Shown piece by piece: positions 8,704 to 38,839 of a stretch of DNA of 38,839 nucleotides; positions within the stretch are counted from its first letter, which is position 1; every line of letters begins with the position of its first letter. The notes beneath the pieces are model-generated. The model worked only from the letters and a program-made list of their open reading frames with translations, was not told the DNA's origin and made no database searches. The DNA is from Planctomycetota bacterium (GTDB lineage: Bacteria > Planctomycetota > Planctomycetia > Gemmatales > Gemmataceae). The position numbers and the translations under genes are program-made. The stretch spans positions 1 through 38,839 of the forward strand of contig JACPPF010000127.1 in NCBI GenBank assembly GCA_016191165.1. Reading direction: 5' to 3'.

Positions 8704-10197
8704 ATGACGATGGCCAAGCAGATGCCCAAGGGGACAAACCAATCGGAATTGCCGGCCGTTGAGCCCGCTCATGCCGGTCCGCGCCGCCGACTTCTGGTGG
8801 TGGATGATCGCGAGGCAACCTGCCAGCACCTCAAGCAAGTTCTTCAGAGCGAGCAGCTCGACGTGGACTACCACATCGACGGCCACCAGGCTCTCCAGGC
8901 CATGCAGAAAACGGCGTATAGCATTCTGCTCACCGATTTGAAAATGCCGCGCATGAGTGGCATGGATCTCATTCGTGAGGTGCAAAAGCTTGCCATTCCG
9001 GTAACGATCATCGTCATCGCCGGGCATGGAAGCATCGACGAGGCGGTGCAGGCAATTCGCCTGGGGGCTTATGATTTTCTGACCAAGCCGGTGGAGGCCG
9101 TCCATCTGCGGCTGGTGATCGAGCGTGCGCTGCGCGATCGCGCCTTGCAGGATGAGCTGGCGCAGTTGCGGATCAATCTCCAGAATCAGTATTCCTTCCA
9201 GAATATCCTGAGCAAGAATCACCGCATGCACGCGATTTTTGAACTGATCAGCAATGTCGCGCATACCAATAGCACGGTCCTCATCGAAGGGGAAACCGGC
9301 ACCGGCAAGGAGCAGGTGGCGCGCGCCGTGCATGCGACCGCCAGCGAACGTAGCGGACCGTTTGTCGCCATCAACTGCGCCGCGTTGCCGGAAACCCTGC
9401 TGGAAAGCGAACTATTCGGACACGAAAAGGGAGCCTTCACGAGCGCAGTGGGCCAACGAAAGGGCCGCTTCGAGATGGCGGAAGGCGGGACGATATTCCT
9501 GGACGAGATCGGCGATATGCCCGCGTCGATGCAGGCGAAATTGCTTCGCGTTCTCCAGGAGCGCTCCTTCGAACGCATCGGCGGCACGGAGACCATTCAC
9601 GTCGATGTGCGGGTCATCACGGCCTCCAACCGGTCGCTGCCTCAGATGGTCAAGGATGGGAAATTCCGGGAGGATTTATACTATCGCCTGAACGTCATCA
9701 AGATTGATTTGCCTCCCCTGCGCGAACGGCGCGAGGATATTCCGTTGCTGGCGACCCATTTCGTCGCGAAATACTCGCCGGCCAGCACCAGTCCCAAGAA
9801 GATTGCTCCGGACGCCATGCAGGTTTTGCTCGCGTATTCCTGGCCTGGCAACGTCCGCGAGCTGGAAAACGCGATCGAGCGCGCCTGTGTCACGTCACGC
9901 GAGCAAACGATCCAGATTGAAAATCTGCCTCCCGATTTGGTCCATCCGCCCAGGGCGAAGTCGCCGTTCGCGATCGACTTGCAACGTCCGCTCACGGAGC
10001 ACCTTCACGAGGCGGTCGCTCAAATCGAGAAAGAGTTTATCAGTAGAGCCCTTGAAAAAACGCGTGGCCACATTGGGCAGTGCGCGCGAATATGCGGATT
10101 GTCGCGGCGAAGCATCACCGCGAAGATGAATGCCTATGAGCTGGACAAGGATGCTTTCAAGACTAGCGAGTTGGGAGCCACAGAACCGGAAGCATGA
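8704..10197 (+). CDS. Sigma-54-dependent response regulator (NtrC type)
   Basis: 497 residues, GGGAG just upstream. Receiver domain about 28-145: acidic pair D34/D35, phosphoacceptor D78 (LTDLKMPRMSG), K128 (FLTKPVE). AAA+ domain about 168-400: Walker A GETGTGKE (196-203), sigma-54 contact loop GAFTSA (243-248), Walker B TIFLDE (264-269), WPGNVRELENA near 380-390. A Fis-type helix-turn-helix lies near 455-478 (HIGQCARICGLSRRSITAKM). Two oddities: the usual GAFTGA is GAFTSA, and the receiver switch Thr/Ser is Ala106 (VIAGHG). The protein should bind upstream DNA and open sigma-54 promoters by ATP hydrolysis. Several candidate -24/-12 promoters in this window are plausible targets. Confidence 0.93.
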   Translation: MTMAKQMPKGTNQSELPAVEPAHAGPRRRLLVVDDREATCQHLKQVLQSEQLDVDYHIDGHQALQAMQKTAYSILLTDLKMPRMSGMDLIREVQKLAIPVTIIVIAGHGSIDEAVQAIRLGAYDFLTKPVEAVHLRLVIERALRDRALQDELAQLRINLQNQYSFQNILSKNHRMHAIFELISNVAHTNSTVLIEGETGTGKEQVARAVHATASERSGPFVAINCAALPETLLESELFGHEKGAFTSAVGQRKGRFEMAEGGTIFLDEIGDMPASMQAKLLRVLQERSFERIGGTETIHVDVRVITASNRSLPQMVKDGKFREDLYYRLNVIKIDLPPLRERREDIPLLATHFVAKYSPASTSPKKIAPDAMQVLLAYSWPGNVRELENAIERACVTSREQTIQIENLPPDLVHPPRAKSPFAIDLQRPLTEHLHEAVAQIEKEFISRALEKTRGHIGQCARICGLSRRSITAKMNAYELDKDAFKTSELGATEPEA

Positions 10198-30697: not shown

Positions 30698-32766
30698 GTT
30701 CGACAACCAAAGCGCGCCCATTATTCGATCCGCCGATTGTCCGGCGTGCCGTCGTCGATGCTTTCAAGAAGCTCGATCCGCGGCGTCAGGTTCGCAATCC
30801 GGTGATGTTTACGGTTTACATCGGCAGCATCCTTACGACCGGGCTCTGGATTCACTCGATCATCGAGCAGACCGGCGAAGCGTTCTTCATCATCAACATC
30901 ACCGCGTGGCTATGGTTCACGGTTCTGTTCGCGAACTTTGCCGAGGCGATGGCCGAGGGCCGCGGCAAGGCCCAGGCGGATTCGCTCCGGCAGACCAAAC
31001 GCGACGTGGTCGCCAAAAGGGTGGACGAGCCGCATCACGGCGCTCGTTTTGCGCTCGTGGCTGCATCGGCTCTGCGCAAAGACGACGTCATTGAGGTAGG
31101 AGCTGGAGAGTTGATTCCCGGCGATGGGGAAATCGTCGAAGGCGTCGCCTCCGTGGACGAAAGCGCGATTACGGGCGAAAGCGCTCCGGTCATTCGCGAG
31201 AGCGGCGGCGACCGCAGCAGTGTCACCGGAGGGACGCGCGTTCTCTCCGATTGGCTCGTCATCTGCATCACCGCCAATCCTGGCGAAACGTTCCTGGATC
31301 GCATGATCTCTTTGGTCGAAGGCGCCAAGCGGCAGAAGACGCCCAACGAGATTGCGCTCGACATTCTGCTCGGCGCAATGACGATCATCTTTCTGATCGC
31401 TTGCGCCACGCTCTTGCCGTTCTCGAAATACAGCGTTGCTGCCGCCGGGCAAGGAACGCCCATCACGATCACCGTTTTGGTGGCGCTACTGGTTTGCTTG
31501 ATTCCGACGACAATCGGCGGCCTGCTTTCAGCGATCGGCATTGCAGGCATGGATCGCATGATCCAGGCGAACGTCATCGCCATGTCAGGCCGGGCCGTCG
31601 AAGCGGCGGGCGACGTGGATGTGTTGCTCCTGGACAAGACGGGCACAATCACGCTCGGCAATCGCCAGGCCGTGGAGTTGATTCCCGCGCCCGGCGTCCA
31701 AATTAGCGTGCTTGCCGACGCCGCGCAGCTCGCTTCGCTAGCCGACGGGACACCGGAAGGCCGCAGCATCGTCGTCCTGGCGAAAGAGAAGTACGGCTTG
31801 CGCGGCCGCAACGTGCAAGAGCTGCACGCAACGTTCATCCAATTCTCGGCGCAGACGCGCATCAGCGGCGTCGATATGGACAGCCGTCTGGTCCGCAAGG
31901 GCGCGGCCGACGCTATTGAAGCGTTCATCCAGGAGCGTGGCGGAACCGTTCCGGCAGAATTGAAACGCCGGGTCGATGACATCGCGAAGCGTGGCGGCAC
32001 ACCGCTCGTGGTCGCGGAAGGTCCGCGTGCACTCGGCGTGATCTATCTGAAAGACATCGTGAAAGGTGGCATCAAGGAGCGCTTCGCCGAGTTGCGCCGC
32101 ATGGGCGTCAAGACGGTGATGATCACCGGCGACAATCCGCTCACGGCGGCAGCCATCGCCGCCGAAGCCGGCGTGGACGATTTCCTTGCTCAGGCGACGC
32201 CGGAAGCGAAGCTCAAGGTGATCCGCGAACATCAAGCCGGTGGCCAACTGGTCGCGATGACCGGCGACGGTACGAACGATGCGCCGGCGCTTGCCCAGGC
32301 CGACGTTGCCGTTGCGATGAACTCCGGCACGCAGGCAGCCAAGGAAGCCGGCAACATGGTCGATCTCGACTCCAATCCGACCAAGCTCATCGAGATCGTC
32401 GAAATCGGCAAGCAACTCCTGATGACGCGTGGCTCGCTGACAACGTTCAGCCTGGCCAACGATGTCGCCAAGTACTTCGCCATCATCCCCGCCGCTTTTG
32501 CGGCCACTTATCCCGTGCTCGACAAGCTCAACATCATGGATCTTGGACACGGGACGGCCATCCTCTCGGCGGTGATCTTCAATGCCCTCATCATCGTCGC
32601 GCTGATCCCGTTGGCGCTGCGCGGCGTGAAATACCGTCCGGTTGGGGCGGCCACACTGTTGCGCGACAACTTGTTGATTTATGGTCTGGGCGGTTTGGTC
32701 GTGCCGTTCATCGGCATCAAGCTGATCGACCTGATCTTGGCCGCTTGCGGCTTAGCGTTTGCATGA
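30694..32766 (+). CDS. kdpB: KdpB, P-type ATPase subunit
   Basis: 690 residues from [14 protein letters not shown]; the frame is open far upstream inside kdpA, but the 4-bp ATGA overlap (30694-30697) fixes this start. Phosphorylated Asp is D314 in [13 protein letters not shown]. Also seen: the actuator motif [28 protein letters not shown], and the hinge [20 protein letters not shown]. The size is normal. KdpB hydrolyses ATP and moves K+ handed over by KdpA. The start of the unit is translationally coupled, while kdpC follows after 40 bp with its own ribosome site. Confidence 0.97.
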
Positions 32767-32806
32767 CACCTCGCGAGCGCTGAGCCGCAAGCGGCTGGAG
32801 GAAAAC

Positions 32807-33388
32807 ATGAAATCGCATGTACGAACCGCGTTCACGGTCTTCGGACTGCTCACCATCCTGACGGGGGCCGTCTATCCCGCTCTGGTAACGCTCATTGCCC
32901 AAGGTGTGTTTCCCTATCAGGCAAACGGCAGCGTGATCATGCGCGACGGCAAGGCAGTCGGTTCGGAATTGATCGGGCAGACCTTCGACATCCCGCGCTA
33001 CTTTTGGAGCCGGCCCTCCGCAACGGGACCGATGCCCTACAACTCGGAAGCGTCCTCGGGCTCGAACCTCGGCCCGACGAATCCAGCTCTGATCGAAGCC
33101 GTGCGTGATCGCACCAAGGCGGTGCGCGAAGCGCATCCCGATCAATCCGGGCCGGTCCCCGTGGATCTGGTCACGGCGTCGGCAAGCGGGCTCGATCCCC
33201 ACATCAGCCCCGCCGCCGCCGAGTATCAGGTCAAGCGCGTGGCAAAAGCACGCGACCTGAAGGACGACGTGGTTCGCGAGTTGGTCCGCAAAAACACGGA
33301 AGCCCGCACGTTCGGCGTGCTCGGCGAGCCGCGCGTCAATGTCCTGCGGGTCAACCGTGCGCTCGATGCATTGAACGTAAAAGAGTGA
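32807..33388 (+). CDS. kdpC: KdpC, potassium pump accessory subunit
   Basis: 193 residues from [10 protein letters not shown], with GGAGG 8 nt upstream; an in-frame TTG at 32759 is less likely. One N-terminal membrane helix ([20 protein letters not shown]), then the periplasmic domain with [50 protein letters not shown] and [12 protein letters not shown]. All KdpC hallmarks are present. It assembles the KdpFABC complex and increases nucleotide affinity. Confidence 0.96.
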
Positions 33389-33390
33389 CG

Positions 33391-33633
33391 ATGAACGACG
33401 AATTGTCGGAGTATGAAGCCCAGTCCGATTCATGTGCCAGCGAACCGAATTGGCTGATGCGGTTGTGGTTGAGCTTTTGGGCCTGGTTGACGGAGCCGAT
33501 GCCCTTTCCGCGTGACCACTGGGATCGGCGTGAAGTAATGATTATCTGGGATGAATTCGATTGCGATGGTGATCCGGCTCTGCCGGAAAGCCGGGCGGGG
33601 GAACCGGTAGACAGCCGGTCTCCTCCGTCATGA
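33391..33633 (+). CDS. Small acidic Trp-rich protein between kdpC and kdpD
   Basis: 80 residues from ATG 33391: MNDELSEYEAQSDSCASEPN, LMRLWLSFWAWLTEPMPFP, RDHWDRREVMIIWDEFDCD and an acidic tail. It starts 3 nt after the kdpC stop; an alternative GTG at 33385 would overlap that stop (GTGA). A central amphipathic stretch with four Trp could associate with the membrane. I do not recognise a family. Its position inside the operon argues for a role linked to Kdp. Gene-finder noise is possible, but the close spacing supports it. Confidence 0.6.
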   Translation: MNDELSEYEAQSDSCASEPNWLMRLWLSFWAWLTEPMPFPRDHWDRREVMIIWDEFDCDGDPALPESRAGEPVDSRSPPS

Positions 33634-33762
33634 AACACCTCGCTCACGCCTTGGTTCCTATCTAACCCGTAGGCTACACAAGCCAGGGTCGTGGGCGAGG
33701 TTTCAGTTCTCCCCTCGCCCAATGCGTGAGCGGCGTTGGCGCCAAGCCGTAGAATGACGAAT

Positions 33763-36483
33763 ATGGCCGACAAGCGCCCCAATCCTGATGAACTCTTGGC
33801 CCGCGTGCAAACCGACGAAGCGCGTGCGCGGCGCGGTAAGCTGAAGATTTTTTTCGGCTACGCCGCTGGCGTCGGCAAAACCTACGCCATGCTCGAAGCC
33901 GCCCGGCGCGAACGCGTGGAAGGAAATGAGATCCTAGTCGGCTACGTCGAGCCGCACGGCCGGCCGGACACGGAGGCGTTGCTCGAAGGTCTCGAAGTCA
34001 TTCCGCCGCGTCAGGTTCCTTACCGCGGTGTGACTTTGCGCGAATTCGATCTCGATGCCGCTCTGGCTCGACGCCCCAAACTGATCCTCGTTGATGAACT
34101 GGCTCATTCCAACGCTGAAGGATCTCGCCATACGAAACGCTGGCAAGACATCGAGGAACTGCTCGAAGCGGGCATCGACGTTTGGAGCACTCTGAACGTT
34201 CAGCACCTGGAAAGCCTAAATGATGTAATTGCGCAGATCACCGGCGTCGTAGTCCGCGAGACGCTCCCGGATTCCGTGCTCGAACGCGTCGATGAAATTG
34301 AGTTGATCGACATCACGCCGGAAGAACTTATCGAGCGGCTCCAGGCCGGCAAGGTTTACATCACGCCCCAAGCCGAGCGAGCGCTTCAGAGTTTCTTTCA
34401 AAGGGCGAATCTCATCGCGTTGCGCGAGTTGTCGCTTCGGCAGGCCGCCAATCGCCTGCGGCGCGACGTGGATGCGGCGCGGCTAGATCGAGCGGCGCCA
34501 GGCCCGTGGGCAACGAGCGAACGCTTGCTGGTCTGTGTCGGTCCCAGTCCGACGACGGCCAAGCTCATTCGCACTGCCAAGCGGATGGCTGCCGCCTTCG
34601 GTGCCGAATGGCTTGCCGTCGCCGTGGAGACGCACGGGGGAAGCCAGACGTTGACGGGAACGCGACAAAAGGTCGCGCAGCACCTGCGCCTGGCCGACCA
34701 ACTCGGAGCGGAGGCGCACACGCTGGTCGGCGCGAACGTCGCCCAATCGATCCTGGAATATGCCCGCTCGCGCAACGTGACGAAGATCGTGGTCGGAAAA
34801 ACCGCCCAGCCTTGGTGGAAGCGCTGGTTCGTCGGCACCGTTGTCGATCAATTGCTGGACAATAGCGGCGATATCGACATCTACGTGATTCGGGGTGAGT
34901 CCGAAGCCGCCGGCTCGATCGAATCGTTGCCTCCGCAAGCGCCGGTTCGCTGGACCGATTACGTCGGCACGGCACTCGTCGTGGCCGTTTGCGGACTGAT
35001 TGGATGGTTGAATCATTTTTTTGGGTTGGCCGAGGCCAACACCGTCATGGTCTTTCTGCTGGGCGTGGCTTTTGTCGCCTCACGCTACGGCCGAGGACCC
35101 TCAATTGCCGCTTCAATAGTCAGCGTAATCATCTTCGATTTCTTCTTTGTGCCCCCCTATTTGACGTTGACCGTTGACGACCCGCAGTACTATCTCGCGT
35201 TTGGTGTCATGCTTGCGATTGCCTTTCTCATCAGCACGCTGACGGCGCGGCTCAAGGAGCAGCTGCGTGCCTCCCAGGAGCAAGAACACCGGACCGCCGC
35301 CCTGTACCGCTTCACCAAGCAGTTGAGCGAGATCACGGGTATGGAATTTCTGGTCCGCGCTGCCGGGCAACAGCTCAGCCAGGTTTTCGCCGGCGAGGTC
35401 GTGCTGTTCTTGCGAGATACCAGGGGTTCCGTCGCTCTACGCTTCGGTGACGATAGCAGCGTAGCCAAGCAATCGGTGAACGCCCTGGTCGCCCAGTGGG
35501 TCGCGGACCATGACCAGATGGCGGGCGCCGGCACCGATACCTTGCCCAATGCCACTGCGCTGTTCGTGCCGTTGATCGGCTCACAGCGGACGATTGGCGC
35601 CCTCGGGATCAAGCCGACGGATTCGCAGTATTTCCTGGACCCCGAGCAACGACGACTCCTGGAAACATGCGCCAGTCTGATCGCCCTTTCGATCGAGCGG
35701 GACCAATCCGTGCTCGAAGCACACGAATACCAACTGCAGGTTCAAGCGGAGCAGTTGCGCAGTTCTCTTCTGAGTTCGGTGTCGCACGATTTGCGGACGC
35801 CATTGGCGGCCATCGCTGGAGCCAGCTCCAGTTTGCTCGATGGCGCGCCGGTGCAAGACGACACGACACGGCGGGAACTGCTACAAAGCATCGTAGATGA
35901 ATCTCACCGGCTCGCCCGATTGGTCGACAATTTGCTCGACATGACGCGGCTAGAATCGGGGATCGTTCCACTCAACAAGCAATGGCACGTTTTGGAAGAG
36001 ATTGTGGGCTCGGCGCGCTCCCGTCTGCGAAAGGAACTCGAACATCATCCGGTTCAAGTAGAGATTCCGGTTGATTTCCCGCTTTTGCAACTGGACGGTC
36101 TCCTGATGGAACAGGTGCTCGTCAATCTGCTGGAGAATGCCGCCCGCTATACGCCCGCCGGCACGCAGATTGACATCTGCGCCCGCCGAGAAGGCATCCA
36201 CGCCGAAATCCGCGTTTCCGATGATGGCCCCGGACTTCCTCCCGGAAGCGAAGCACGCGTCTTCGATAAGTTCTTTCGTGGCTCGACGACGCCGACCGCC
36301 GATGGTCGGCGCGGGGCGGGCTTGGGGCTGGCGATCTGCAAGGGAATCATCCAGACTCACGGCGGGACTATCATCGCCCGCAATCGGCCTGGCGGCGGCG
36401 CGGACTTCGTGATTTCGCTCCCCTGCGTTGAAACGGCGCCACGAGTCGTTCTGGACGAAGTTCCTGTCAGCGGTGGATCTTGA
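33763..36483 (+). CDS. kdpD: KdpD, potassium-responsive sensor histidine kinase
   Basis: 906 residues from MADKRPNPDELLARVQ; starts at 33754 and 33736 are possible, none with a strong ribosome site. N-terminal KdpD domain with P-loop GYAAGVGKT (about 32-41), LVDELAHSNAEGSRHTKRWQ, and DVWSTLNVQHLESLNDV. A Usp-like domain follows (about 240-380), then four membrane helices near 395-500, a GAF-like domain, and the kinase core with H675 (VSSVSHDLRTPLAAI), N-box NLLENAARYTP, DDGPGLPPG and GAGLGLAICKG. It responds to low K+ or turgor and controls KdpE. It has the full-length E. coli architecture. Confidence 0.95.
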   Translation: MADKRPNPDELLARVQTDEARARRGKLKIFFGYAAGVGKTYAMLEAARRERVEGNEILVGYVEPHGRPDTEALLEGLEVIPPRQVPYRGVTLREFDLDAALARRPKLILVDELAHSNAEGSRHTKRWQDIEELLEAGIDVWSTLNVQHLESLNDVIAQITGVVVRETLPDSVLERVDEIELIDITPEELIERLQAGKVYITPQAERALQSFFQRANLIALRELSLRQAANRLRRDVDAARLDRAAPGPWATSERLLVCVGPSPTTAKLIRTAKRMAAAFGAEWLAVAVETHGGSQTLTGTRQKVAQHLRLADQLGAEAHTLVGANVAQSILEYARSRNVTKIVVGKTAQPWWKRWFVGTVVDQLLDNSGDIDIYVIRGESEAAGSIESLPPQAPVRWTDYVGTALVVAVCGLIGWLNHFFGLAEANTVMVFLLGVAFVASRYGRGPSIAASIVSVIIFDFFFVPPYLTLTVDDPQYYLAFGVMLAIAFLISTLTARLKEQLRASQEQEHRTAALYRFTKQLSEITGMEFLVRAAGQQLSQVFAGEVVLFLRDTRGSVALRFGDDSSVAKQSVNALVAQWVADHDQMAGAGTDTLPNATALFVPLIGSQRTIGALGIKPTDSQYFLDPEQRRLLETCASLIALSIERDQSVLEAHEYQLQVQAEQLRSSLLSSVSHDLRTPLAAIAGASSSLLDGAPVQDDTTRRELLQSIVDESHRLARLVDNLLDMTRLESGIVPLNKQWHVLEEIVGSARSRLRKELEHHPVQVEIPVDFPLLQLDGLLMEQVLVNLLENAARYTPAGTQIDICARREGIHAEIRVSDDGPGLPPGSEARVFDKFFRGSTTPTADGRRGAGLGLAICKGIIQTHGGTIIARNRPGGGADFVISLPCVETAPRVVLDEVPVSGGS

Positions 36484-36486
36484 ACC

Positions 36487-37185
36487 ATGGCGATATTTGC
36501 ACCGCTCATTCTGCTGATTGAAGACGAGTTACCGATCCGGCGATTTCTCCGTACCTCGTTGTCGTCTGAAGATTATCGGTTTGTGGAAGCGGAATCAGGT
36601 CAGCAGGCCATTCGCCTCGCCGCACGACAACCGCCTGATCTCGTCATTCTCGACCTTGGACTTCCGGATATCGATGGACAGGACGTGCTGCGCCAGTTGC
36701 GCGAATGGCTCAAAGCACCGATCATCATCCTGTCTGCGCGCGATCAAGAGAAGCAAAAAGTCACGGCCCTGGACAATGGCGCAGACGACTACCTGACGAA
36801 ACCATTCAGCACGGCCGAGCTGCTCGCTCGTATCCGCGTGGCTTTACGGCACGCAAACAAAGGCAGCGGCGAAGCGGAGGCCTCGACGTTTGCGACCGGC
36901 GATCTCAAGGTCGATTTGGCCAATCGCAAGGTGCTCGTGAAGGAGCAAGAAATTCATCTCACGCCGCTTGAGTACAAGCTGCTTACAACCCTGGTGAAAC
37001 ACGCCGGCAAGGTCCTGACGCATCGCTTCCTGCTCAATGAGGTCTGGGGACCGCTGCACGGACGGGAAACGCATTACTTGCGCGTCTTCATGGCGAGCCT
37101 GCGCCGAAAGATCGAAGAAGACGCGTCCCAACCAAGGTATCTGATCACGGAACAGGGCGTTGGCTACAGGTTCACCGCTGAATGA
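36487..37185 (+). CDS. kdpE: KdpE, OmpR-family response regulator
   Basis: 232 residues, 3 bp after kdpD. The receiver has IEDE (acidic pair), D56 (VILDLGLPDIDG), ILSAR and the Lys in LTKPFST. The winged helix shows EIHLTPLEYKLLTTLVKHAG, LTHRFLLNEVWG and YLRVFMASLRRKIE. It activates kdp transcription on phosphorylation by KdpD. As the last gene of the operon, it is downstream of the structural genes, which is the reverse of no known hindrance; the pair lies in the usual order. Confidence 0.96.
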   Translation: MAIFAPLILLIEDELPIRRFLRTSLSSEDYRFVEAESGQQAIRLAARQPPDLVILDLGLPDIDGQDVLRQLREWLKAPIIILSARDQEKQKVTALDNGADDYLTKPFSTAELLARIRVALRHANKGSGEAEASTFATGDLKVDLANRKVLVKEQEIHLTPLEYKLLTTLVKHAGKVLTHRFLLNEVWGPLHGRETHYLRVFMASLRRKIEEDASQPRYLITEQGVGYRFTAE

Positions 37186-37415: not shown

Positions 37416-37760
37416 GAGGAGCACGGCCTCACTTTCGTTTCGTCCATGGTGTTGGCCAGCCGAATCAAAGAGGACCAGGAGTAGGAAGGGGTGAGAATCA
37501 CCTGCCCCGTCCGGCTTGGAAACGCTCGTCTCCAACTTCAAATCGATGTCGGATTCGGCGACGCAATCACACCTGCTCCCATTCGTGTGGACTTTCCGAC
37601 AATCCTCGACCTTCCTGCGCCAATTCTCAATGCGTACCCCAAGGAGACGGTCGTCGCCGAAAAATTCCAGGCCATGACTGCCTTGGGAATTCAGAACAAT
37701 TCAGGTTTGAGAACTGGTTTTGAAATGCCACTCGCTGGCTGGTTTTGGAGCGCAAGGTGA
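37416..37760 (+). pseudogene. AbiEii/AbiGii-type nucleotidyltransferase toxin, internal fragment
   Basis: The frame reads EEHGLTFVSSMVLASRIKEDQE, then TAG at 37482-37484, then EGVRITCPVRLG, LQLQIDVGFGDAITPAPIRV, FPTILDLPAPILNAYPKETV and VAEKFQAMTALGIQNN. This is the middle of the AbiEii family (PF08843): RIKEDADYEG, DIGFGD and YPxETVVAEK motifs. A Tyr codon in the normal motif (EDxxYEG) has become TAG. No N-terminal half or start is present, and the sequence diverges after ALGIQNN, losing the C-terminus. It is a relic of a type IV toxin-antitoxin or abortive-infection system; no AbiEi antitoxin is nearby. Confidence 0.75.
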
Positions 37761-37807: not shown

Positions 37808-38419
37808 TCATGCCTGATCAACCAGCTCGTCGCTCATGTAGGGATTCAGGAGCGTTCGCAACGCTTGTCTCGCCCGATGAAGGCGCGTTTTCACGGCTCC
37901 AGGATTCAGGCCCAAAAGCGCAGCAGTCTGGTCAGTGTCGAATTCCTCGATGTCACGCATCACCAAGACCGTGCGATAGTCCTCTGGCAATTGATTGATG
38001 CACTGGCGTACCTGGGCCTTGGTTTCGGTGTTTGCCATGCGCTCATAACCGCTCTCGGACCATGGGGCCACGGGTTGGGCATGATGGCCAGCCTCATCGA
38101 AGGTAGGGAGCAATTCTTCGATGGAGTAGGTTTTCCGCCGTGATTTTGAGCGAATCTTCATGAGGCAAGTGTCCACGACGATTCGATGAAGCCATGTCCC
38201 GAGCGATGAGTTGCCTTCGAAACGACCCAACGATTTGAACGCAGACAGGAAGGCATCCTGCACCGCATCCGCCGCATCATCCTCGCAGTGCAGGAATCCG
38301 CGAGCCAAGATCAGCATTCGACCGGTGTGTTGGCGGACGAAGAGGGCGAACGCATCTTCATCGCCGGCGCGAAGTCGGCACAGCAGATCGGTTTCAACGA
38401 TCAGGGTGGAAGCCGTCAT
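37808..38419 (-). CDS. ECF-type RNA polymerase sigma factor
   Basis: 203 residues from MTASTLIVET (38419; GGAG upstream, ATGA overlap with the STAS gene). Region 2: DEDAFALFVRQHTGRMLILA, DAADAVQDAFLSAFKSLGRF and LGTWLHRIVVDTCL. Region 4: CINQLPEDYRTVLVMRDIEE, FDTDQTAALLGLNPGAVKTR and LHRARQALRTLL. This is the standard two-domain ECF layout without extra C-terminal domains. It is convergent with the AbiEii remnant. Coupling to a STAS protein is unusual for an ECF factor. Confidence 0.93.
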   Translation of the reverse strand: MTASTLIVETDLLCRLRAGDEDAFALFVRQHTGRMLILARGFLHCEDDAADAVQDAFLSAFKSLGRFEGNSSLGTWLHRIVVDTCLMKIRSKSRRKTYSIEELLPTFDEAGHHAQPVAPWSESGYERMANTETKAQVRQCINQLPEDYRTVLVMRDIEEFDTDQTAALLGLNPGAVKTRLHRARQALRTLLNPYMSDELVDQA

Positions 38420-38673
38420 GATTTCTCCATCTGCAAGAGGGCCGCGACGTAACCGGAGCAAGCGGTGAGCTTCGCGCCGTGCCGGAGCAAGTCGGCCAGG
38501 ACTCGAATTCCCGCCGAGTCGGTGAAAGTAAGAGCTGACAAATCCAGCTCGATGCTGCTCACCGAGCCGTTGATCGAACGCTGCACCTCCTCGATCCAAG
38601 GCTCAAGCATCTTCCCTTCGAGCTTGAGCAAGGTGTTCGATTCGTCAATCGGGTGTCTGGTGATTCTGAGCAT
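38416..38673 (-). CDS. STAS-domain anti-sigma-factor-antagonist-like protein
   Basis: 85 residues from MLRITRHPIDES (38673; GGGGAGA upstream). STAS fold with LEGKMLEPWIEEVQRSI and IELDLSALTFTDSAGIRVLA. The TDSAG serine is the phosphorylation site in SpoIIAA/RsbV-like antagonists. The last 4 bases overlap the ECF sigma start, so the two are translationally coupled. In the usual logic such a protein frees a sigma factor from an anti-sigma kinase; here no kinase gene is visible within the window, and the ECF partner is atypical. Confidence 0.88.
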   Translation of the reverse strand: MLRITRHPIDESNTLLKLEGKMLEPWIEEVQRSINGSVSSIELDLSALTFTDSAGIRVLADLLRHGAKLTACSGYVAALLQMEKS

Positions 38674-38725
38674 GGCGAACGTCTCCCCTTCAGTCGGGAG
38701 GGGTGCCGTCACTCCCTGCCAGGAA

Positions 38726-38839
38726 TTATGCGGCCATTTCGAAAGAATTCGTGTCTACGGTAACCTTAGTTCGCCCTTCTGCCTGAGACGAGCCCTTCAC
38801 ATACGTTGCGAACACGTTGCGCCACAGCTTGCTGATCCA
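38726..38839 (-). CDS. C-terminal fragment of an unknown gene at the right edge
   Basis: Entering from the window edge, the minus strand is open for 37 codons: WISKLWRNVFATYVKGSSQA, EGRTKVTVDTNSFEMAA, then TAA. It ends 52 bp upstream of the STAS gene start and is in the same direction. The composition looks protein-like, but a 37-codon open stretch is short, and no family is recognised. Calling it a gene end is tentative. Confidence 0.35.
   Translation of the reverse strand, partial: WISKLWRNVFATYVKGSSQAEGRTKVTVDTNSFEMAA

Follow-up and report, generated by a model that had tools for sequence, protein, structure and literature searches.

SpoIIAA/SpoIIAB and RsbV/RsbW are partner-switching systems. 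Control of an ECF sigma factor by a sigma-54 activator is best known from HrpL, and SypG, the activator of another locus considered here, is sigma-54 dependent. Transcription of the ECF gene hrpL in Pseudomonas syringae needs sigma-54 and the enhancer-binding proteins HrpR and HrpS (PMC5263251, PMC4145663); HrpL runs type III secretion, and HrpV, which the consulted parts of these papers do not describe as a STAS protein, represses through HrpS. The SypG-activated locus of Vibrio fischeri starts with the gene of SypA, a single-domain STAS protein that is regulated on Ser56 by SypE, and no ECF factor appears in the part of the text consulted (PMC4517449). In BcrS/AbcS-BcrXQP of Brucella and SigF of Azospira (ECF16), the targets are a methionine-rich MXKDX peptide and a system like MsrPQ (PMC8315932). 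Two further systems resemble in part the locus described here. Sigma-SsdA of Actinoplanes missouriensis joins a sigma factor and an anti-sigma antagonist domain in one protein, and it is the partner, SipA, that has the anti-sigma domain (PMC10733313, consulted in part). In the PhyR-NepR-EcfG system of Alphaproteobacteria, partner switching acts on an ECF factor, but PhyR mimics a sigma factor, and the term STAS is absent from the main text of the review (PMC8103513). A 2025 survey of sigma-54 regulons contains neither "STAS" nor "ECF" at the start of a word in its main text (PMC12316311), and we found no description of a cassette or circuit like the one below in titles and abstract openings of the open-licence literature, a source that gives weak evidence on this point.

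The window, that is, the whole stretch of 38,839 nucleotides analyzed here, is a whole contig (C84) of a planctomycete draft genome (G000; G, L and C numbers are our labels for genomes, loci and contigs). The initial annotation had described a STAS protein with a TDSAG site whose gene overlaps an ECF gene by 4 bp, and had proposed that the pair could be a partner switch acting on an ECF factor. The overlap and the TDSAG site are there as described, and both frames are open on the minus strand (Table 1). The STAS protein scored 25.1 bits against Pfam STAS (cut-off 22.6), and its AlphaFold2 model (mean pLDDT 93.2) matched SpoIIAA, RsbV and TM1442 in the PDB; a profile search of the PDB by sequence, not structure, gave no match. 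The sigma factor scored 68.6 bits for Sigma70_r4_2 and 52.6 bits for Sigma70_r2, both above cut-off, and 90.8 bits for the NCBIfam sigma70-ECF superfamily (cut-off 42.9); the best 25 of 93 matches included no equivalog or subfamily model at or above its cut-off. Regions 2 and 4 were the only sigma-70 regions with Pfam models above cut-off, which is the ECF-type layout and not that of a SigB/SigF-type factor. The pair adjoins three Kdp-like ORFs (32759-37185), which we take to resemble KdpC, KdpD and KdpE, and a short ORF at 37491-37760 presumably resembles a piece of an AbiEii-like nucleotidyltransferase.

Table 1. Features of the STAS-ECF pair and its upstream flank in the window.
Feature	Position	Strand	Basis
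STAS gene, 85 aa	38416..38673	-	ORF and translation (ATG at 38673, stop at 38416); Pfam STAS over cut-off
ECF sigma factor gene, 203 aa	37808..38419	-	ORF (ATG at 38419, stop at 37808); Sigma70_r2 and Sigma70_r4_2
ATGA overlap of STAS stop and ECF start	38416..38419	-	sequence
TDSAG codons, STAS residues 51-55	38509..38523	-	alignment of 13 STAS proteins
GGGGAG, plausible STAS ribosome-binding site	38683..38688	-	read from sequence
End of repeated transposon-like element, starts GGGTGCCGTCACTCC	38701..38839	.	copies in other contigs

The initial annotation had staked its proposal on recurrence of the pair, and the pair does recur among planctomycetes. Across 397 genomes of the class, a STAS profile built from three STAS proteins found at least 18 matches in at least 16 genomes, and an ECF gene lay directly behind STAS in nine of the 18 matches (scored with our own STAS, ECF, ZAS and activator profiles, ZAS being the zinc-finger anti-sigma). 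The pair is hence present in at least nine of the 397 genomes, the window's included (G000, G042, G366, G255, G277, G132, G229, G081 and G197), and a tenth pair is found in a named Phycisphaerae record (L063). Loci L060, L061, L062 and L074, whose contigs equal those of G366, G277, G042 and G255 in length, duplicate them and were counted once; L100 (Rokuibacteriota), where 36 bp lie between STAS and a distant ECF, was kept outside the pair counts. In all ten STAS-ECF loci an in-frame ECF start lies -4 to +11 bp from the STAS stop: at -4 (ATG or GTG) in six, one of which also has a start at +29, at -1 in two, and at +10 or +11 in two, one of these with a TTG at -4 as well. Some loci have further in-frame ECF starts upstream, so the measured starts are candidates. 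The arrangement is more than chance, and recurrence together with the conserved junction led us to reject a unique or accidental overlap. STAS lacked a downstream ECF gene in the other nine matches (G010 twice, G196, G133, G130, G035, G103 and G234 twice), one of them near a contig end; in G010 (L031, 11411-12274) a weak ECF-like stretch lies upstream of one STAS gene, the reverse of the pair order. Six other genomes of the window's genus gave no STAS at E 0.001 and no ECF at E 1e-30, and an initial contig scan that used just the ECF as query turned up no relative.

The window's STAS protein has the STAS fold of SpoIIAA and RsbV, and the serine of its TDSAG site (Ser53, which we take to be the SpoIIAA Ser58 position) is at the right place for phosphorylation; moreover, HATPase_c_2 proteins are encoded somewhere in all nine pair genomes, so an RsbW-like kinase could be encoded elsewhere. 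However, a serine at this position was found in just one of 13 aligned STAS proteins, that of the window: in the remaining 12 this residue is A, R, V, E, G or L, and three of these have a serine one residue on. Nor was a HATPase gene seen beside the pair at any of the nine loci, although the contig ends near the pair in G000, G366 and G197 and gives a partial view; the sole HATPase_c_2 genes located on pair contigs are ~17.5, 61 and 200 kb away. Three loci (L116, L117 and L118) have a related STAS gene behind the same type of regulatory region with no ECF found. Because the serine is confined to the window among the aligned proteins, no adjacent HATPase gene was seen, STAS genes occur without an ECF and a sigma-54 activator accompanies the pair (see below), a classic phosphorylation switch is unsupported; we rejected an RsbW-type switch and consider one with the kinase encoded elsewhere very improbable. 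The proposed partner switch on an ECF factor therefore keeps its coupling and recurrence and loses its classic phosphorylation mechanism. A STAS protein without a neighboring RsbW-type partner offers a way to study the role of STAS in such a setting.

The steadiest companion of STAS across the loci is a sigma-54 activator. It is encoded directly upstream of STAS in G042, G366, G255, G132, G229, G081 and L063, and also upstream in G197, where it is cut by a contig end (split contigs). The four activators examined are 640-673 aa long, and each matched GAF, PAS, Sigma54_activat and HTH_8 above cut-off. A GAF-PAS profile found at least 26 copies in at least 25 of the 397 genomes, including eight of the nine pair genomes, G000 being the exception; rpoN was present in 12 of 12 genomes tested. 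We sorted the copies by their downstream genes or by those behind the enhancer at another place in the same genome. Eight belong with STAS and ECF (G366, G229, G132, G081, G042, G255, G197 and G277, the last with its activator on another contig than the pair and no enhancer beside it), nine with an ECF alone (G059, G300, G291, G099, G221, G078, G158, G060 and G285), and three with STAS alone (G133, one G130 copy and G196, on split contigs). STAS is therefore optional, being missing from nine activator-ECF loci, as is the ECF, missing from three activator-STAS loci. The six other copies are those of G150, where what remains of a STAS gene scores 25 bits, G194 and G143, where an MXKDX-like lipoprotein gene follows, G160, G083, where a contig end follows, and a second one in G130. 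We noted that this second G130 copy (L203) precedes a long ORF that looks kinase-like by eye, that the G160 activator (L204) is broken by an internal stop, and that the ECF of G221 (L196) is read in two frames.

The DNA upstream of STAS is equally conserved. Each of 13 loci, 12 from planctomycetes plus L100, has a -24/-12-like box that scores at least 20 of 25 no more than 75 bp upstream of STAS, although two of them, L117 and L118, resemble each other and are not independent. Such a box was seen in none of 11 control loci, where the ECF has a ZAS next to it, and in 1.9% of 20,000 random 75-mers; the scoring weights are our own, set from a sigma-54 consensus, and the 75-bp span was fixed after a first look at the upstream regions. 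One of seven activator upstream regions also scored 22. Further upstream, all 12 planctomycete STAS loci have two palindromes like CACGAnnnnTCGTG, with starts 19-21 bp apart, that begin at -141 to -206 relative to STAS; no such pair was found in the 11 control loci. We regard these tandem palindromes as a candidate enhancer. Searching the 397 genomes for the tandem pattern matched 22 genomes, compared with five for a reversed-pattern control, and the 22 comprised nine known STAS loci, five new activator-ECF loci, and seven further loci (L162 to L168) that we dismissed as chance, having no ECF, STAS or full-length cassette activator; L162 has an AAA+ activator domain ~0.8 kb beyond the pattern. 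The last, G238, was left out of locus inspection. At the activator-ECF loci, the promoter box was present in nine of nine and the palindromes lay just behind the activator gene in seven of nine, overlapping its end in L197 and lying ~100 bp further on in L160. These loci, which have an ECF but no STAS, fall into a single clade within one family, so neither their promoters nor their motif sites count as independent.

The best explanation, to which we give a probability of about 0.62, is descent of the STAS-ECF pair from an operon that forms the output of a sigma-54-to-ECF cascade. This cascade would probably serve an oxidant response, with STAS as a co-expressed modulator. The GAF-PAS-AAA+-Fis activator, encoded upstream or, once, elsewhere, would bind the tandem palindromes and, as the conserved DNA suggests, drive the -24/-12 promoter (box GGCACG-N4-TCGCT) just upstream of STAS. 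Judging by the junction, STAS and ECF would then be made together through overlapping or nearly overlapping translation, and the ECF would read a promoter motif of its own (described below) before the genes of ZAS, which would give feedback, of methionine-rich MXKDX-like lipoproteins and of redox proteins. The layout itself is seen in the relatives, with seven STAS+ECF loci that have the activator directly upstream and nine activator-ECF loci. As in the HrpL cascade, an ECF would be under sigma-54 and an activator; unlike in that system, the activator here carries a GAF and a PAS domain, STAS comes first in the operon, and ZAS seemingly belongs to the regulon. If correct, this extends sigma-54 control of an ECF to environmental bacteria, at nine loci without STAS and in eight genomes with it, and predicts a testable planctomycete circuit of sensor-activator, enhancer, sigma-54 promoter, STAS-ECF operon, ECF promoter, oxidant-repair regulon and feedback anti-sigma.

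For the window copy the cascade is extrapolated from the relatives, none of its upstream parts being visible in the window itself. The contig terminates inside a repeated element whose end begins 27 bp upstream of the STAS ATG, at the place of the promoter in the relatives. The last 139 bp of the window have an identical copy at the end of contig C41, and further copies are found at the end of C170 (135 bp), near the end of C175 (73 bp, 99%) and, inverted, in C149 (30 bp); five copies of the terminus GGGTGCCGTCACTCCCTGCCAGGAATTATG were found at or near contig ends of the same genome. Upstream of STAS, the visible 166 bp showed no -24/-12 box (best score 18 of 25, inside the element) and no tandem enhancer pattern, the latter not being found anywhere in G000, and a sigma-70 scan found no promoter reading into STAS. 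The cassette activator was not found in G000 at E 1e-70 among the matches listed (the draft is ~95% complete), where the matches were a single weak one and the AAA+ parts of other activators. Since the element end lies 27 bp upstream of STAS and a search of the draft genome found no activator ortholog, the window copy has probably lost its native control, and it looks like a cut-off remnant of a cassette rather than a member of the cascade. We considered C149, C41, C170 and C175 as the missing activator side and rejected them, since genome-wide searches of G000 found neither this activator type nor a tandem enhancer; by eye, the flanks of the C149 copy differ from that of the window. Elsewhere in the window, 9142-10131 encodes an AAA+ sigma-54 activator domain (349 bits with our own profile, positions 318-643) with no match to the GAF-PAS part of the cassette activator.

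Next, we considered the ECF lineage and the whereabouts of ZAS. The ECF tree, from which L196 was left out, has a clade of 24 (99/99) that contains all three arrangements, with many weak inner branches, and eight activator-ECF loci without STAS form one derived clade within it (100/98), which suggests that STAS was lost once in the activator-ECF clade. The occurrence of the same ECF clade beside ZAS or behind a sigma-54 promoter makes it a case for studying rewired sigma control. In ECF relatives without STAS, ZAS is encoded directly behind the ECF (11 of 11). Among nine STAS+ECF loci with flanks examined, ZAS was found in six, in places other than behind the ECF: near the activator in G042, G197, G366 (a weak match) and L063, divergent from STAS in G277, and, in G132, separated from the activator by ~5 kb. 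The surroundings of the pair in G229, G081 and G255 yielded no ZAS. No zf-HC2 anti-sigma gene adjoins the window pair, and G000 has one strong, unlinked copy (C74:1522-1746, 88.7 bits; the next two matches scored 25.9 and 22.8 bits). None was found near the nine activator-ECF loci without STAS.

This distribution, and a fold closest to that of SpoIIAA/RsbV, would fit a two-storey circuit: the activator would turn on the STAS-ECF operon, and STAS, acting without a kinase as an anti-anti-sigma, would pull a soluble ZAS off the ECF, whose induction of ZAS would close the loop. We hold this as a tentative alternative; were it true, the cassette would present a STAS anti-anti-sigma that acts on an ECF/ZAS pair. 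The co-occurrence of STAS and ZAS is, however, confounded, because the STAS-less loci in the tree (eight of nine) form one clade of one family, and the search for ZAS in this group covered near-locus flanks only. Moreover, STAS occurs without an ECF in G133, G130 and G196, and we know of no described contact between a STAS protein and a ZAS.

Direct binding of STAS to the ECF as its regulator would account for the tight start-stop distance that is kept in all ten loci. STAS genes without an ECF and same-clade ECFs without STAS argue against it, and we regard it as unlikely. Somewhat less unlikely is that STAS is no more than a co-regulated passenger whose target lies outside the sigma circuit, like SypA or MlaB. 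SypA is, after all, the first gene product of a locus with an activator of its own, and we examined 25 other STAS loci, 23 from other phyla and two from the class (L064-L073, L075-L086, L103, L119 and L120): an AAA+ sigma-54 activator domain was encoded in the fetched stretch in 16, a sigma-54-like box lay upstream in 10, and an ECF directly downstream in none. The overlap or near overlap of STAS with the ECF in ten planctomycete loci is at odds with a mere passenger. Within the preferred reading, STAS as an optional modulator of the cascade, our first guess at its target is feedback on the activator, because the activator is its steadiest companion; we put this short of even odds, ZAS a little behind it and the ECF well behind both. 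In five of the loci from other phyla (L064, L068, L077, L083 and L103), STAS opens long frames of 536-546 aa.

To look for promoters read by the ECF, we made a blind two-box count over 19 chosen upstream regions (of ZAS, MXKDX, b561 and ZAS-linked ECF genes). The top motif, GTAAC-N15..18-CATC, was present in nine of the 19, while ten shuffles reached at most three. The nine activator-ECF loci, outside the discovery set, contained 16 sites (Markov mean 0.83, maximum 3 in 30 runs), and the ten STAS+ECF loci, partly within the discovery set, contained 10 (mean 1.33, maximum 4). By comparison, 19 control loci had 4 sites (mean 2.27, maximum 6), six close ECF-ZAS loci were hardly enriched (3 sites; shuffled mean 1.55), and seven other activator loci had none (shuffled mean 1.25). 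Sites lay upstream of ZAS in G042, G277, G197, G132 and G000. In G197 and G132 they also precede MXKDX-like genes, and, should an ATG ~40-45 bp further on be the true start, sites precede the G366 molybdopterin oxidoreductase and the G059 AhpC/TSA genes as well; exact-motif sites in G229, G255, G059 and G291 led to no ZAS. Genome-wide, the strict form gave six matches in G000 (reversed control 1), one of them ~60-80 bp upstream of the start of the unlinked ZAS, where it falls within the final codons of the ORF before it; the remaining five all lie inside ORFs. Four genomes without a STAS or activator match had 1, 2, 2 and 2, and ten genomes with the pair or an activator-ECF locus, G000 included, had 1 to 10. 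Genome-wide counts are near background, and the support for the motif comes from the positions of its sites.

The neighbors of the loci give a lead on function. They include MXKDX-like methionine-rich lipoproteins (best TIGR02953 score 40.4 bits, cut-off 41), an MsrP-like molybdopterin protein (86 bits, under the cut-off of 207), DUF417 proteins of the RclC family (above the Pfam cut-off, below that of NCBIfam RclC), and cytochrome b561, DUF1223, AhpC/TSA, SDR and DinB-fold proteins. At least one of five oxidant-repair markers was present in 4 of 11 STAS+ECF loci, two of which are contigs from a single genome. Markers were also present at 3 of 3 loci with STAS only, 1 of 9 activator-ECF loci, 5 of 7 of the other activator loci and 3 of 6 close ECF-ZAS loci, and in none of the 25 remaining loci (five distant ECF-ZAS, 13 lone-STAS including L100, and seven chance-pattern loci). 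Six loci from which marker seeds were taken (L026, L063, L116, L117, L201 and L203) are bound to be counted, and L028, L029 and L202 had been inspected before the MXKDX rule was fixed. We take these neighbors as a lead, pointing to a regulon that probably deals with hypochlorite-like oxidant stress and its repair. The hypochlorite regulon of Brucella BcrS resembles these neighbors in its MXKDX peptide and MsrQP, and two of its recognition sites also have TGTAAC in the -35 box; by contrast, its anti-sigma is a membrane protein of the NrsF family (DUF1109) whereas the planctomycete relatives have zf-HC2 proteins, and the consulted part of the text mentions neither STAS nor a sigma-54 activator (PMC8315932). 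In G229 (L250, 2534-4081), divergent SDR and DinB-fold genes have a common intergenic region with two candidate ECF promoters, and similar-looking ORFs adjoin activator-ECF loci.
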